Shown in pieces: positions 26,334 through 34,278 of a stretch of DNA of 64,000 bases. Below the pieces are notes generated by a model. That model had not been told where the DNA came from. It made no database searches and saw nothing but the letters and a program-made list of their open reading frames with translations. This DNA comes from Acidobacteriota bacterium (GTDB lineage: Bacteria > Actinomycetota > AC-67): assembly GCA_016208485.1 (NCBI GenBank), contig JACQXY010000019.1:4505-68504 (forward strand), given 5' to 3'. Numbering within the stretch: position 1 is the first letter of the stretch; every line of letters starts with the position of its first letter. The position numbers and the translations under genes are program-made.

Positions 26334-26636
26334 GTGCGGCTCCTGATCACGGCCACGGCCGCGCGTCAGATTCGCGACGCCGACGATTGGTGGGCTGAGC
26401 ATCGTACGGCTGCGCCGAGACTGTTGCGCGCTGAACTCAACCGTGCGTTTCACCTTATCACTTCGCAGCCCCAGGCAGGCTCGTGTGCGGAGAACGTAGA
26501 GTTGCCCGACGTCCGCCGCGTGTTGCTGCGTCGGACTCGCTATCACGTCTACTACCGCGCGTCGCAAGGCGTCGTCCGAATCATCGGGTTCTGGCACGCG
26601 AGCAGGGGCAGCACACCAGACCTTCCTGGTGGGTAG
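26334..26636 (+). CDS. ParE/RelE-family toxin
   Basis: A 100-residue toxin from GTG 26334. The fold markers are present: ITATAARQIRDADDWWAEHR at the N-terminus, then LLRAELNRAFHLITSQPQAG, LPDVRRVLLRRTRYHVYYRA and VVRIIGFWHASRGSTPDL. ParE toxins inhibit gyrase and RelE toxins cleave mRNA; which applies is not clear. Immediately downstream of its antitoxin. The ~260-bp stretch after it to the hicB promoter holds no gene I can support. Confidence 0.87.
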   Translation: MRLLITATAARQIRDADDWWAEHRTAAPRLLRAELNRAFHLITSQPQAGSCAENVELPDVRRVLLRRTRYHVYYRASQGVVRIIGFWHASRGSTPDLPGG

Positions 26637-26897
26637 TTGCCCAACGCGGAGATCCTCCTCGACGTCTGCTCCGCGATGCCCTGAGAGGGGTGGTCGTCGG
26701 CTCGGGACCGTCAGACGTGTCTGACGGTCCGGCGCGGCTGCGACGTGGGTCGGCGACGCCCGCCGCGCGGACTCCCTACTTGGGCTCATTGCCCCGATGA
26801 CTTCGTCCTGGGCAGCCAGGCCTGCGGGGGTGGCTCCCCGGACCGCTGCTCGACCACGTCAGTACCTGGTGGCCGGCGGTAGGCGATAATGGCTGGC

Positions 26898-27379: not shown

Positions 27380-28915
27380 ATGAGCAGTCAACTCTGTCCT
27401 TCGTGTGGATCGGTGCTCGCGCCGGGAACCCCTGTCTGCGGTTCCTGCGGAGCGCGCCTTGCACAGGGACCACCCGCTTCCCCCGGAGCGCCCGGCGCAC
27501 CATCCGGTCCTCCCGCAGGAACCCGATACCCGCCGCCCCCGCCGCTCGTAAGGCCGCCGGCTGGCCCTCCTGGCGGGCCCCCTCCGGTGTCAGGTTCTCC
27601 TCCCACGGTTTCGAGCGCCCCGGGAGGGGCCGGAAGGAATCGCAAGCTTCTCGCCGGGCTGGCGGCGCTCGCTCTCCTCGTCGCCGGCGGCGTGATCGTG
27701 GCCATCGTCGGCGGCGGGGACTCGGACTCCTCGGGTGAAGGGGAGATCCTGATGGAACCGGTCGGCGCGGCGGTTCCCGACCCGTTCACCGAGTCGGTTG
27801 CCCTGGCCGAAGCCGCCGTGGAGCCGGTTCCGCTTTCATCCGACGCCGCCACGAGCGCGCCTCCAGCCACCGCGACCGGGGTTCCCACGACCGCGACCGG
27901 GGCTCCGGCGGCGCAGGTCGGCCTTCACCAGGTGAGGGGGTCTCAGCCGGGCCTCTACGGCGGCACGCGCAGGAGAGCTTCATGTGACCGCGAGCAGATC
28001 ATTCGCTTCCTCGAGTCCCATCCGGACAAGGCCGCCGTGTGGGCCGGGGTGCAGGGCATCTCGACGTCGGAGATACCCTCGTTCGTGCGCGGGTTGACGC
28101 CGGTGGTGCTCCGTCAGGACACGCGCGTCACGAACTACGGCTATCGGAGTGGCCGGGCGACGCCGAGGCAGGCGGTGCTGCAGGCAGGCCACGCTGTGCT
28201 CGTCGACGAGCTCGGCGTTCCGCGCGCGAAGTGCTCTTGCGGCAACCCGCTCTCTCCCCCGAGGCCGGTGAAGAGGAAGGCGCACTATGCCGGCAACCGG
28301 TGGCCGAAGTTCTCTCCCACCACGCTGGTCGTGGTGATCGTCCACGTGCCGGTCAAGGAGTTCGTTCTGGTCGACGTCTCGACCGGGGTTCCGTTCGTGC
28401 GCAAGCCCGCGACGGAAGGCGCCGACGACGCCGACGTGCCCGAGGACCTGAGGTGCGGGCTCGTCCCCGATGCCCCCGCCTGCCAGACAGGAACACCGGA
28501 CGGCGGAGAGCAAACGCCTGCCGGCGAAGGGCCGCCCGCCGTGGGCGAGCCTCAGGCGATCTTCAAGATCGACTCGATCCAGGGGACCATGAACGGCCCC
28601 TCGAACCCCAGCGCGTTCAGCATCTCGAGCACCGCACGGATCGTGAAGATCATGACCTACCACTGGAACGGCGCGAAGGGGAAGACCCCCGGGACGATCG
28701 GGCTGCGCGCCTCCGACGGCACCATGTTCGGACCGTGGAATGCAACCGGTAGGCCCGGCCAGGGCGGTGTGCCCAACGCCTACTGGTGGGTGGAGATGGA
28801 CGTCCTCATACCGCCCGGCACCTATCAGGTGATCGATTCGGATCCCGCGAGCTGGGCGTGGGCGTCCGACACCGGCGGGAGGGGCATCACGAACGTCTTC
28901 GGGTATCTGAGCTAG
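27380..28915 (+). CDS. zinc-ribbon, membrane-anchored DUF6777 protein
   Basis: A 511-residue protein. An N-terminal zinc ribbon (CPSCGSVLAPGTPVCGSCGA) is followed by a Pro/Gly-rich stretch (~30-85). A TM helix comes next (LLAGLAALALLVAGGVIVAI), then an extracellular domain with the DUF6777 signature: GLYGGTRRRASCDREQIIRF, SFVRGLTPVVLRQDTRVTNY, and CSCGNPLSPP. A C-terminal beta-sandwich-like region (~390-510: FKIDSIQGTMNGPSNPSAFS) adds a possible binding module. ATG 27380 has GGGGAGG upstream. DUF6777 function is unknown. Confidence 0.78.
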   Translation: MSSQLCPSCGSVLAPGTPVCGSCGARLAQGPPASPGAPGAPSGPPAGTRYPPPPPLVRPPAGPPGGPPPVSGSPPTVSSAPGGAGRNRKLLAGLAALALLVAGGVIVAIVGGGDSDSSGEGEILMEPVGAAVPDPFTESVALAEAAVEPVPLSSDAATSAPPATATGVPTTATGAPAAQVGLHQVRGSQPGLYGGTRRRASCDREQIIRFLESHPDKAAVWAGVQGISTSEIPSFVRGLTPVVLRQDTRVTNYGYRSGRATPRQAVLQAGHAVLVDELGVPRAKCSCGNPLSPPRPVKRKAHYAGNRWPKFSPTTLVVVIVHVPVKEFVLVDVSTGVPFVRKPATEGADDADVPEDLRCGLVPDAPACQTGTPDGGEQTPAGEGPPAVGEPQAIFKIDSIQGTMNGPSNPSAFSISSTARIVKIMTYHWNGAKGKTPGTIGLRASDGTMFGPWNATGRPGQGGVPNAYWWVEMDVLIPPGTYQVIDSDPASWAWASDTGGRGITNVFGYLS

Positions 28916-28992
28916 ATCCAGGCGCTTCCCGTTCGCGGTGCGCTCCCCGTGCGCCAGGCGGTCGGCCTGCCCGGACCACGAGACCTGGCGGT

Positions 28993-29028
28993 TTGTGCAG
29001 CGCACAACAAGATTCTCGTTCTGCACAA
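28993..29028 (+). promoter_or_regulatory. inverted-repeat site upstream of the first tandem secreted gene
   Basis: TTGTGCAG (28993-29000) and CTGCACAA (29021-29028) are perfect inverted arms 20 nt apart. TTGTGC-AGC-GCACAA forms an additional small palindrome inside. TACAAT further downstream could be a -10. The whole stretch (about 28978-29150) recurs almost unchanged before the second paralogue at 31860-32040. Confidence 0.5.
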
Positions 29029-29114
29029 TAGATTCGTGGGGGCGCTGTCCGTACAATCCTCCGAATCCCCTGCGTGGTGTGGGGACGCGATCGAGCAGGC
29101 AGGGGGGAGTGGGT

Positions 29115-31670
29115 ATGCGGCTGTGGAGGCGTACAGGCGTGGCTGACGGCTTGGAGCCCCGGGTGCGAGGGAGAACCGCAGGAGCACCCCGCCGGGGTGG
29201 GCGCTTCGGCCGGGCGCTGCTCTCGGTGGCGGTGCTGGCGAGCGCGACCGTGGTCTGGCTTCCGGGTCCGGCGGCCCAGGCCGCGCCGTCCACGACCTTC
29301 CACACCCACACGGAGTACAAGACCCCGACCGGGGCCATCATCACCACCGACGTCGACGCGCTCGTGGGCTCGCCCGCCTTCATCGACGTGGACCACAACC
29401 CGGCCACCGGATCGCTCGGCAAGGACATCAAGGTCCAACTCAGCTTCGGGGACGGGGTGTGGGCCGGCGTGGGTGTGCCCAATCTCGTGGTGGCCAGGAC
29501 GAGCGGCGTCGAGGCGGTGTTCCCGTTGCTCGTCAAGGTGTCCTTGGACGCCAACACGACCACCTACAAGACCGTCACCCTCGGCTACGACTCGCTCGCC
29601 GACACCGCCCCCGCGCAGTGGTCGGCCTTTCTCCGCTCGTGCAACGTCGTGCAGGGGACGTGCGCAACGCCGATGGTCCTCGAGTTCTTCACCACCTCGT
29701 GGGCCCACCAAAGCCCCGTCAAGACCCTCGGCGTCATCGGCGAGGTCCTGAGGACGGACGGATCCCGGCTCCAGGCCCGGGTCGACCTCACGCCACCGCC
29801 CGACCGGGTCCAGATCAGCTCCAGCCCGACGGACGTGAGCTACACGGCCTGGGATGACAACGGGCAGTACTGGGCTGCCCAGGTGGTTCCCGAAGTCAAG
29901 GTCGACATCTACGACTCGGCGGGCCTCTTCGGCCGGGCGAAGTACCTGAGCGCCGTGCTCCAGCAGGTTCCGGCCGACCTCGCCCTGGCATACGATGCCT
30001 CCACCGGAGCCGCCACCCTCGACGCCAAGGGCGGCACGCTCGGGCTCGGTCAGGTCCTGCTCTCGAGCCTGCCCCCGAGCCAGGTTGGGTCCGCCGACCG
30101 GCTGGACGAGGTCTGTGCCCCGGCGACCTGCGACGGTGTGCTGCTGCGCGACATGTCGGACCGCTACGTGCTGGAGGCCCGGGTGGCCGGCCTGCGCAAG
30201 GCCATCTACAACCCCCAGGGCCCGAGCGCCACGCTCGACACCACAGACGGCCGGGCCTTCAAGCTCGACACCCTCTCCTCGACCACCTCCACCACAACCG
30301 GCGCCTACACCCGGGCCGCAGTCGACAAGCTCCCGACGAGCGTCTCGGTGGCCCTCGGGTCGGGGACTCTCACCTACTCCGCCTCCTCAGTCGTCGGCCA
30401 GATCACCTTCGACGCCTACAACCCCAGAGGGCTCTTTGGCCAGGCGAAGTACCTGAGCGTCGATCTCCGGCAGGTCCCGACCGCGCTTGCCTTCTCGTTC
30501 AACAGCTCCACCGGAGCGGTGAGCGGCGACGCGAAGGGCGGCACGCTGGGGTACGTGAAGGCCACCGCGACGAGCGTCGATCCGTCGCAAGTCAAGTGGC
30601 CGGACTGGGTGAATGGGCACCGGGTGCGCGACGCCGAAAAGACGTGCACGTGGGTGGAGCCGTGGCCGGGGCTCCCGGGATACTGGCGGTGCCGGTACGA
30701 GTACCACTGGGAGAACTGGACCGAGAGCCAGAGCGTCGGGGGCGTCGTCCGCTGGGACAACCCCCAGACCTACGCGATCTTCGCCCGGTTCCACGACCTG
30801 CGGGGGTTCGCCTACAACCCGAGCGGGCCGAGCGGCACCCTGAAGGAGGACGGGTCGCCGTTCACGTACTTCGACGTCAACTCCGGGGGGGAGTACCTCC
30901 AGGCGTCGCTGGACCGGCGTCCCGTCGGGAGCAGCTGCGACCCGTACGCGGTCCACGTCCCCTCCTGCGTCGGGCCGAAGGACATCAGCCTCAGTGTCAG
31001 CAAGCCGAGCGGGAGCGCGTTCGTGGTGGACTACTCGGCCTCGGGCGCCGGCACCGGGCTCTACGCGAACACCAACGCAGCCGGATCCCCGATGCAGGTC
31101 AGCCTCACCAACCCGCTCCCGGCCACCTTCAGCGTGTGCAAGGCCTCGGACGCGTCCTGCAGCAACCACGTGGGTTCCTACTACGGCGACGACTCTCTGG
31201 GCTCCATCAAGTTCAGCGCGAGCCAGCACACCAACCTCAGCTACGCCGAATCCGGGGTGACCAAAGCGAACCTGTGGCTCCGCTACCTGGAGTTGGACAT
31301 GGCGTACACAGTGGACATCCCGGAGTGCACCGCGTCGGATGCCCGGGACGGCAATCGCTGTGCGCACGGTGCGATCTGGATGGACACCACCCCGCCCGGC
31401 TACGGATCGAGCTACGGCGCCTTGACGGGGACCGCCAACCTGGCCGGCTACAGCCAGAGGTTCCCCTCGGGGTTCTGGGCGCACGACCGTTTCGGCTGGT
31501 TCGAGGTCTACGCGAACTTCTCGGACGACAACATCGACTTCCGGACGGGCGGCTCCGGCTCGGCCTCCTGCCCGGCAGGCACCACCCTCGGGGAGCCCCA
31601 GAAAGTCGAGGGGTACAACTACCGGTTCATGACGAGCGCCCTATGCGGGAGCCTGGGCTCGTGGAACTGA
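29115..31670 (+). CDS. large secreted repeat protein, paralogue A of a tandem pair
   Basis: An 851-residue exported protein. ATG 29115 lies 5 nt after AGGGGGGAG. An arginine-rich n-region and signal peptide (LLSVAVLASATVVWLPGPAA) end near residue 56. The N-terminal domain (~57-265) and C-terminal domain (~657-851, with IWMDTTPPGYG and SCPAGTTLGEPQ) are shared with paralogue B at 32000. The ~390-residue middle is unique to A and holds two related units: GLFGRAKYLSAVLQQVPADL near 267 and GLFGQAKYLSVDLRQVPTAL near 435, each followed by DAKGGTLG. Cys pairs suggest disulfides. No known family or catalytic motif; a surface or extracellular structural/binding role is inferred. Confidence 0.7.
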   Translation: MRLWRRTGVADGLEPRVRGRTAGAPRRGGRFGRALLSVAVLASATVVWLPGPAAQAAPSTTFHTHTEYKTPTGAIITTDVDALVGSPAFIDVDHNPATGSLGKDIKVQLSFGDGVWAGVGVPNLVVARTSGVEAVFPLLVKVSLDANTTTYKTVTLGYDSLADTAPAQWSAFLRSCNVVQGTCATPMVLEFFTTSWAHQSPVKTLGVIGEVLRTDGSRLQARVDLTPPPDRVQISSSPTDVSYTAWDDNGQYWAAQVVPEVKVDIYDSAGLFGRAKYLSAVLQQVPADLALAYDASTGAATLDAKGGTLGLGQVLLSSLPPSQVGSADRLDEVCAPATCDGVLLRDMSDRYVLEARVAGLRKAIYNPQGPSATLDTTDGRAFKLDTLSSTTSTTTGAYTRAAVDKLPTSVSVALGSGTLTYSASSVVGQITFDAYNPRGLFGQAKYLSVDLRQVPTALAFSFNSSTGAVSGDAKGGTLGYVKATATSVDPSQVKWPDWVNGHRVRDAEKTCTWVEPWPGLPGYWRCRYEYHWENWTESQSVGGVVRWDNPQTYAIFARFHDLRGFAYNPSGPSGTLKEDGSPFTYFDVNSGGEYLQASLDRRPVGSSCDPYAVHVPSCVGPKDISLSVSKPSGSAFVVDYSASGAGTGLYANTNAAGSPMQVSLTNPLPATFSVCKASDASCSNHVGSYYGDDSLGSIKFSASQHTNLSYAESGVTKANLWLRYLELDMAYTVDIPECTASDARDGNRCAHGAIWMDTTPPGYGSSYGALTGTANLAGYSQRFPSGFWAHDRFGWFEVYANFSDDNIDFRTGGSGSASCPAGTTLGEPQKVEGYNYRFMTSALCGSLGSWN

Positions 31671-31730
31671 CCCGACGGGACGCGTAGCGCCTCGGAGCGT
31701 GCGCACGGCGGCGAGAGCGAAGCGAACACG

Positions 31731-31752
31731 GGCCTCCCGAGAAAGGGGGGCC
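31731..31752 (+). terminator. possible intrinsic hairpin after paralogue A
   Basis: GGCCTCCC-GAGAAA-GGGGGGCC: an 8-bp stem with one U-G wobble about 60 bp past the stop of paralogue A, followed by a moderately T-rich TGTGTCTGTG. Plausible transcription terminator. Confidence 0.35.
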
Positions 31753-31774
31753 TGTGTCTGTGAGGACCGTCAAG

Positions 31775-31850
31775 CACGCCGTTCGCGACGGCGAGCGCCT
31801 TGCGCGGGTCGCGCTCGGCCGCCACGGCGCCTTCCTGAGTTCTACAGCGG
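31775..31850 (-). pseudogene. trapped duplicate of the 3' end of the ABC ATPase gene
   Basis: The minus strand reads EGAVAAERDPRKALAVAN, closely matching the C-terminal EGTVAAERDPREALAIAR of the complete ATPase gene at 33490-34278. It sits at a similar distance from paralogue A as the real ATPase end sits from paralogue B. The tandem duplication therefore appears to have copied the flanking ATPase tail along with the secreted gene. Confidence 0.65.
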
Positions 31851-31877
31851 CCGGCCCGAATCATGAGACCTGGGGGT

Positions 31878-31913
31878 TTGTGCAGCGGACAACAAAGTTC
31901 TCGTTCTGCACAA
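31878..31913 (+). promoter_or_regulatory. inverted-repeat site upstream of the second tandem secreted gene
   Basis: TTGTGCAG (31878-31885) and CTGCACAA (31906-31913) with the same 20-nt spacing as at 28993-29028. The inner palindrome half GCACAA is changed to GGACAA, but the outer arms are perfectly kept. Confidence 0.5.
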
Positions 31914-31999
31914 TAGATTTGTGGGGGCGCCGTCCGTACAATCCTCCGAATCCCCTGCGTGGTGTGGGGGCGCGATTGAGCAGGTGGGGGGGAGTGGGC

Positions 32000-33397
32000 A
32001 TGCGGCTGTGGAGGCGTACAGGCGTGGCCGGCCGCGCGGAGCCCCGGGTGCGAGGGGGAACCGCAGGAGCACCCCGCTGGCAACGCCTCGGCCGGGCGCG
32101 GCTCTCGGTGGCGGCGTTGGCGAGCGCGAGCGTAGTCGGGCTCCCGGGTCCGGCCGCCCAAGCTGCGCCGTCCACGACCTTCCACCTCCACACCGAGTAC
32201 AAGAGCCCGACCGGGGCCATCGTCACCGACGACGCAGACTGGTATGCGAACGCGCCGCTCTACCGCGATGTGGACCACAACCCAGCCACCGGGGATTATC
32301 TCGGAGCGGACATCCGTGTGACGCTCTTGCTCTACCAGGAGGGCGTGCCCCATCTCGTGGTGGAGAGGCTGAGGGACGCCCCGGCGGTGTTCCCGTTGCT
32401 CGTCAAGGTGTCCATCGACGCCAACACGGACACGATGAAGAGCGCGGCGCTCGGGTACGACGCCCTCGCCGACACCGCTCCCAAGGCCTGGCAAGCCCTG
32501 CTTCCCGCATGCAGCGTTCTCATGAGCGGGTGGTGCCCGAGTACGCCGATGTACTTGGATCTCTACACCTATCCACCTGTCGGCAGCCTCGGTGTGATCG
32601 GCGAGATCCTGAGGACCGACGGCTCCAGGTTCGACGCCCGGATCGACTTCACGCCGGCCCCCTACTTCGCGCGGATCACCTACGACGCCAACGGCAGCCA
32701 GAAGAGCTTGACGTACGCGGCCCAGGACACGTCCGGCAACCCCCAGACGATCTCCGGATTCAAGGCCGACGTTCGGGACTCAGCCGGGCCCCCGATGCAG
32801 ATCAGCCTCTCCAACCCTGCGCCTGCGACTTTCGGCGTGTGCAAGGACTCGGGCCGGTACTGCAGCAACCACACGGGATCCGGCGGGGAGACTAGTGGTT
32901 CCGTCCTGTTCGACGCGAGCGAGCACACCAACCTCACCTATAGCGAATCCGGCGTGACGAAAGTGAACCTGCGGCTCCGCCACCTCCAGCTGGACTACTT
33001 CTGGACGGACACCGGAGCCTGCGCCGACATCTGGGATTCCATGTACGACACCTGGGATGCTTACTGGGCTGGGTCCCGCCACGAGACGTGCGGGTTTGGC
33101 GAGATCTGGATGGACACGACCCCGCCCGGCCTCGGTCCGGAGAGCGGCGCCCTTACTGGGACCGCCAGCCTGGGCGGCTACAGCCAGGGGTTCCGCTCGG
33201 GGTTCTGGGCCCACGACCGCTATGCCACGTTCCAGGTGGACGCTCGGCTGGAAGGCGACCACATCGCCTTCCACACGAGCAGCTCCGGCACCGTCTCCTG
33301 TCCGGCGGGCACGACCCTCGGGGAACCGCAGAGGACAGGGAACCACTATCGGTTCATGACCAGCGCCCTGTGCGGGAGCTTGGGCGTGTGGGACTGA
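32000..33397 (+). CDS. secreted protein, paralogue B of a tandem pair
   Basis: A 465-residue exported protein; ATG 32000 follows GGGGGGGAG by 5 nt. The first ~170 residues parallel paralogue A (RLWRRTGVA, signal peptide, APSTTFHLHTEYKSPTGAIV, DVDHNPATG). The last ~195 residues are also shared (PPMQISLSNPAPATFGVC, EIWMDTTPPGLG, SCPAGTTLGEPQ). The long repeat-containing middle of A is absent: DSAG at about residue 259 runs straight into the C-terminal domain. This suggests an in-frame deletion in B, or gain in A, at short similar stretches. Both proteins end about six codons after MTSALCGSLG. Function unknown. Confidence 0.7.
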   Translation: MRLWRRTGVAGRAEPRVRGGTAGAPRWQRLGRARLSVAALASASVVGLPGPAAQAAPSTTFHLHTEYKSPTGAIVTDDADWYANAPLYRDVDHNPATGDYLGADIRVTLLLYQEGVPHLVVERLRDAPAVFPLLVKVSIDANTDTMKSAALGYDALADTAPKAWQALLPACSVLMSGWCPSTPMYLDLYTYPPVGSLGVIGEILRTDGSRFDARIDFTPAPYFARITYDANGSQKSLTYAAQDTSGNPQTISGFKADVRDSAGPPMQISLSNPAPATFGVCKDSGRYCSNHTGSGGETSGSVLFDASEHTNLTYSESGVTKVNLRLRHLQLDYFWTDTGACADIWDSMYDTWDAYWAGSRHETCGFGEIWMDTTPPGLGPESGALTGTASLGGYSQGFRSGFWAHDRYATFQVDARLEGDHIAFHTSSSGTVSCPAGTTLGEPQRTGNHYRFMTSALCGSLGVWD

Positions 33398-33489
33398 CCC
33401 GACGGGACGCATAGCGCCGCGGAGCCCGCGTGCCCGCAGACGGTGGGTGGTAGTCGGCTGCAATGTCGGTCCCGACGGGGGCGCGCGGA

Positions 33490-34278
33490 TCAACCCCCGG
33501 GAGCGCGCGGCGCGCCGGCCTTTCGTAGGCTCGCGGCGACCGCCGCGCGCGCGATCGCGAGCGCCTCGCGCGGGTCGCGCTCGGCCGCGACGGTGCCCTC
33601 CTCGAGCACGATCACGCGGTCGGCCACCCCTGCGAGGAAGGCGAGGTCGTGCTCGACGATGACCAGTGAGCAGCCGCTCCGCTCGCGCCATGCGCGAAAG
33701 ACCTCGAGCAAGGCGGTGCGCTCGCCGTGCGCGAGGCCGTCGGCCGGCTCGTCGAGCAGCAGGAGACCGGTGTTCCCCCGGGGGCCAAGTTCACCGCTGC
33801 GCGCCGCGGCCACGGCGAGGTCGAGGATCCGTCGCAGGCCGGTCGACAGCTCGGACACGAAGGCGTTGTCGTGCGCGGTCAGGCCGAACGCCTCGGCGAT
33901 CTCGACTCGGTGGCGGGTATCGGCGCGCCGCGCGCCGGCGCTTTCGCACCCAACGGCGATCACCTCGCCGGTGGTGAGCGACGGGTAGAGCCGCCCGTGC
34001 TGGAATCCCCGGGTCATCCCGAGCCGCGCGCGCCGGTGTGGGGGGACGCCCGTCACGTCGCGCCCGCCGAGCAGCACGCGGCCGCGCGACGGCTCGACGA
34101 GTCCGGAGATCACGTCGAGGAGCGTCGTCTTGCCCGAGCCGTTCGGACCGATCACCCCGAGCGCCTCGCCGGCCCCGACCGAAAGGGAGACGTCCCGGAG
34201 GATCGGGGCACGCCCGATCGCCACCGACACGCCTTGCACCTCGAGGACCGCGGGGGCGGTCGTGGCGGTCTCTCTCAT
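33490..34278 (-). CDS. branched-chain amino acid-type ABC transporter ATPase (LivG-like)
   Basis: A 262-residue ATP-binding subunit. Walker A GPNGSGKTTLLDVISGL, Q-loop region TRGFQHGRLYPSL, a divergent signature ELSTGLRRILDLAVA (LSGG replaced by STGL), Walker B LLLLDEPADGL and H-loop IVEHDLAFL are visible. It overlaps the upstream fusion gene by ATGA, so translation is coupled. Together with the fused permease/ATPase and the lipoprotein it completes a HAAT/Liv-type importer. A copy of its 3' end is fossilised at 31775-31850. Confidence 0.85.
   Translation of the reverse strand: MRETATTAPAVLEVQGVSVAIGRAPILRDVSLSVGAGEALGVIGPNGSGKTTLLDVISGLVEPSRGRVLLGGRDVTGVPPHRRARLGMTRGFQHGRLYPSLTTGEVIAVGCESAGARRADTRHRVEIAEAFGLTAHDNAFVSELSTGLRRILDLAVAAARSGELGPRGNTGLLLLDEPADGLAHGERTALLEVFRAWRERSGCSLVIVEHDLAFLAGVADRVIVLEEGTVAAERDPREALAIARAAVAASLRKAGAPRAPGG

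Follow-up and report, generated by a model that had tools for sequence, protein, structure and literature searches.

A severed ABC transporter ATPase end between two diverged secreted-protein genes as the probable scar of a tandem duplication

In the 64,000-nucleotide stretch analysed here (the window), the gap between two adjacent paralogues, A and B, holds a minus-strand homologue of the C-terminal end of the ABC transporter ATPase gene that follows B. We consider this scrap to be, very probably, a non-functional scar of a tandem duplication whose right breakpoint lay inside the ATPase gene and which was trimmed by later deletions. The window has 71% G+C and lies on contig C73 of a genome of 2.66 Mb in 86 contigs (G000). 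The features on which the argument turns are:

29115 to 31670, plus strand: 851-aa paralogue A, which looks secreted from a signal peptide read by eye
31784 to 31856, minus strand: ATPase C-terminal fossil (gap scrap), matching 33550-33625; looser limits 31765-31856
32000 to 33397, plus strand: paralogue B, 465 aa
33490 to 34278, minus strand: intact LivG-like ABC transporter ATPase gene, convergent to B, source of the scrap

A central region of roughly 380 aa is missing from B, which accounts for its shorter length; neither A nor B had a match in Pfam or NCBIfam. The product of 33490-34278 matched Pfam ABC_tran with 78.9 bits against a cut-off of 25 (E 7.4e-22) and is by Pfam an intact member of the branched-chain amino-acid type ABC transporter ATPases (LivG-like), although its 116.1 bits to the NCBIfam LivG equivalog NF008449 lie below the cut-off of 362. 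Beyond it follow the permease, second ATPase and binding-protein genes of a branched-chain-type transporter.

We compared the gap with the ATPase gene at the nucleotide level. Aligned plus/plus, 31784-31856 and 33550-33625 share 63 identities with 10 mismatches and 3 one-base gaps, a score of 81 that was reached by none of 1000 dinucleotide shuffles (maximum 37), none of 728 control windows (maximum 48) and none of 7046 unselected windows of the same genome, which were denser and overlapping (maximum 48). When the windows included loci picked for ATPase matching, this score was reached in 2 of 5492 and that of a shorter scrap upstream of A, described below, in 22 of 5504, all within such loci. 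The gap might merely resemble the ATPase tail by chance, as GC-rich coding DNA can, and the G+C content of the window lends this some colour, as do three places in the genome (L032, L035 and L036) that have no tblastn link to the ATPase and yet match it with scores of 57-58, above that of the upstream scrap. The gap scrap, however, exceeds those three places as well as every unselected window, and it lies at the place and in the order that a duplication predicts, leaving chance similarity with a negligible probability. A genome-wide DNA search with 31690-32060 returned only the query itself, the region upstream of A and the neighbouring ATPase, despite 49 ATPase-like matches at the protein level in the same genome; the scrap therefore derives from the neighbour specifically.

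The similarity is not confined to the scrap. Self-alignment of 31600-31900 with 33300-33800 gave a single colinear match, 31611-31856 to 33338-33625 (193 identities, 53 mismatches and 42 gap columns), which forms part of a larger match between 31075-31856 and 32778-33625 that runs colinearly through the 3' ends of A and B, the spacer and the ATPase coding end. The segments that follow the two stop codons are as follows:

31671 to 31696: post-stop segment common to A and B, 24 of 26 bases identical to 33398-33423
31727 to 31758: hairpin with a 13-bp stem in the A-side spacer (120 nt folded, z -2.45)
33398 to 33489: live spacer between B and the ATPase gene, corresponding to 31671-31783 on the A side

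Nothing after B corresponds to the middle of the A-side spacer, and ATPase-derived sequence was rejected for 31690-31760, where 642 of 1000 shuffles aligned equally well. The hairpin could form the end of A's transcript; it lacks a T run, and a terminator search by the T-run rule found none at this position. The preliminary description of this DNA had recognized the scrap from a short minus-strand peptide, EGAVAAERDPRKALAVAN, which is present in the A-B gap and whose counterpart in the ATPase is EEGTVAAERDPREALAIAR. Its observation holds, since nucleotide identity extends well beyond that peptide, and its interpretation is supported in essence. It had placed the scrap at 31741-31860, which gives the right location with a left limit about 43 bases too generous, and its statement that the homologous stretches lie at a comparable distance from the two stops is fair: the distances are 113 nt after A and 152 nt after B, and differ because of indels in the spacers.

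The arrangement of these elements points to the event that produced them. Reading from left to right, the window presents A, a spacer, the ATPase scrap, a 5' element, B, a spacer and the whole ATPase gene, the order expected if a block was duplicated head to tail and its right breakpoint fell within the ATPase gene. A and B are adjacent paralogues on the same strand with homologous flanks, and the fragment at their internal junction derives from the outer neighbour and lies in the orientation of the intact gene. We propose that a block starting just upstream of the secreted gene and ending within the convergent ATPase gene was copied head to tail, whereby the left copy, A, would have retained the severed ATPase end and the right copy, B, would have continued to adjoin the whole ATPase gene. 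A and B would then have diverged into proteins of 851 and 465 residues. The scrap would meanwhile have decayed and become shorter, probably when 120 bp were lost between two occurrences of GTCGGCC in the ATPase sequence (33619-33625 and 33739-33745). At random point pairs, 7 or more matching bases occurred in 0.21% of 50,000 draws, for comparison with the 7-nt repeat at this putative deletion. Insertion of B into the ATPase gene was rejected, the ATPase gene after B being whole, and a search for tRNA genes as integration sites at the junctions found none within the window.

Bacterial tandem duplications that leave a truncated neighbouring gene where the copies join form a known general class. 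The locus resembles this class in its head-to-tail order, the severed neighbour at the internal junction, the intact outer neighbour and the later decay and deletion, and differs from it in the strong divergence of the copies and in a second, decayed copy of the block on contig C29. The kind of event is known and ordinary, the scar is unusually readable, and general understanding is unchanged by it.

The gap scrap shows the pattern of decay of dead DNA: mismatches at ATPase codon positions 1, 2 and 3 number 3 of 22, 2 of 25 and 5 of 26, small numbers that nevertheless reach beyond third positions, and three single-base indels accompany them. Retention of the scrap or its strand for a function, for example as a regulatory or antisense element for B, would suit its position next to the well conserved 5' element of B. 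This is very unlikely, given the spread of mismatches across codon positions together with the indels. The 5' elements, moreover, folded as RNA no better than shuffles (z 0.52 and 0.02), and the two scraps in the window derive from separate regions of the ATPase, so that no single element has been kept. The second of these scraps came to light upstream of A, next to one of a pair of 5' elements:

28935 to 28973, minus strand: probable second ATPase scrap, shorter than the first and adjoining the 5' element of A on its upstream side
28968 to 29114, plus strand: 5' element of A, untranslated, probable promoter or leader
31853 to 31999, plus strand: 5' element of B, starting at the presumptive duplication junction

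The two 5' elements are identical at 133 of 147 positions, with 14 mismatches and no gaps. Both contain an inverted repeat, TTGTGCAG...CTGCACAA (28990-29040 and 31875-31925), which was read by eye and is a possible operator. The upstream scrap is identical to 33713-33751 at 34 of 39 positions and represents a more internal part of the ATPase than the gap scrap. Its score of 53 was reached by none of 1000 shuffles and none of 7054 unselected windows; it is less secure than the gap scrap because the three unlinked places described above outscore it. A similar sequence, CGGCC[G/T]GCCCG, marks the left edge of each 5' element; it fits the ATPase near 33741-33751 and suggests that the two edges may share one ancestral junction. 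For the upstream scrap to exist, either a third unit, since lost, or a copied junction is needed. Directly upstream of A lies a gene for a protein with a zinc ribbon and DUF6777 (27380-28915; the zinc-ribbon match is below the curated cut-off), which ends about 20 bases before the upstream scrap.

Divergence between the copies is uneven. A and B differ by a dS of 0.45-0.50 across the gene bodies and of 0.18 across their first 75 codons. Synonymous changes affect about 10 of 65 N-terminal sites and about 86 of 245 body sites (Fisher p 0.002). The 5' element is less diverged still than the N-terminal codons. A dN/dS of 0.66 (bootstrap 0.49-0.87) indicates a high protein rate. With divergence so uneven, a single event without later exchange or strong constraint does not explain everything. 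Purifying selection on a promoter could account for the element and less easily for the synonymous sites, so that the copies are likely to have exchanged their 5' block at a later time.

These data can be accommodated by a richer form of the duplication history, in which at least three tandem units existed. Loss of the leftmost would have left only its ATPase scrap ahead of A, and unequal crossing-over would have kept the 5' blocks similar. The upstream scrap, the alike junctions before A and B and the low 5'-block divergence would all follow from such an array, and a spacer-like match between 26653-26771 and contig C29 speaks for it as well. On the other side, the upstream scrap is only 39 bases long, a gene-conversion tract from B to A would look identical, and no third gene body is left in the window; we regard an array as a serious possibility, somewhat short of even. 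One simple duplication is in any case not the whole history, as the 5' element, the probable upstream scrap and the younger-looking 5' block together indicate. The preliminary description, which had defined the duplication unit as the secreted gene plus the adjoining ATPase 3' end, is borne out by the order and orientation at this locus and by the pairing on contig C29; its unit was incomplete in omitting the 5' element, and it had also missed the probable scrap before A and the younger-looking block.

The tandem duplication is not the only trace of the block in this genome. On contig C29 (L037 6179-7115, minus strand), a decayed block comprises a 3' fragment of the secreted gene, a spacer and pieces of the ATPase, so that the pairing of gene and ATPase has been copied elsewhere too. 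The secreted-gene fragment is 78-85% identical to A and 79% to B, and the ATPase pieces correspond to 33455-33583 (90%), 33647-33697 (83%) and 33794-33904 (95%). The ATPase remnant keeps an open frame of 119 aa (L004 960-1319). The first deletion in this ATPase copy removed 72 bp at a 5-base repeat, and the second showed no exact microhomology at the endpoint pair set. Across 138 codons common to the three copies, dS is 0.53 between A and B, 0.36 between A and the C29 copy and 0.41 between B and the C29 copy. The gene directly adjoining the C29 block is one that we take to be folP (dihydropteroate synthase).

Taken further, the block of secreted gene and ATPase 3' end might be duplication-prone: copied at least twice (in tandem and to C29) and recombining via its conserved 5' element, it would serve to diversify a lineage-specific secreted protein and would have shed ATPase scraps again and again. 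We offer this as a speculative and rather unlikely generalization.

We also surveyed the distribution of the proteins and of the locus. Matches to B occurred in 2 of the 60 genomes searched as relatives, namely its own and G002 of the same family. Across the phylum, 4 of 396 genomes, its own included, had matches to A. In G002, open frames of 1137 to over 2000 aa match A, which belongs to a large repeat-bearing secreted family. In the 16 kb taken around the related transporter locus of G002 there was no secreted homologue, and no unduplicated arrangement was seen among the genomes searched, which included no other genome of the genus. A search among genome contigs for named relatives with protein A gave 11 pattern-matching stretches and no relatives, and a binding-protein alignment search for named relatives gave 69 pattern-matching stretches and one relative, a MAG labelled Actinomycetota bacterium; judged by its relatives, the genome is that of an uncultured actinobacterium. 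Literature searches gave no mention of this locus in titles and abstract openings. Beyond the preliminary description, the analysis adds where the unit ends on its 5' side, a probable second scrap, a fossil copy elsewhere in the genome and divergence that is uneven along the copies. For two diverging secreted-protein genes of a little-known actinobacterial lineage, the extent and direction of the duplication that made them are fixed, and the dead scraps offer a neutral yardstick beside genes with a high protein rate.

Upstream of these genes, the 119-bp intergenic stretch at 26653-26771 matches the C29 spacer with 97 identities, 19 mismatches and 6 gaps. The palindrome GTCAGACGTGTCTGAC lies within this match and occurs at three places in the genome, including contig C54 (L075). 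Close by, the small ORF at 26334-26636 presumably encodes a putative ParE/RelE-type toxin of a toxin-antitoxin pair, which it resembles.
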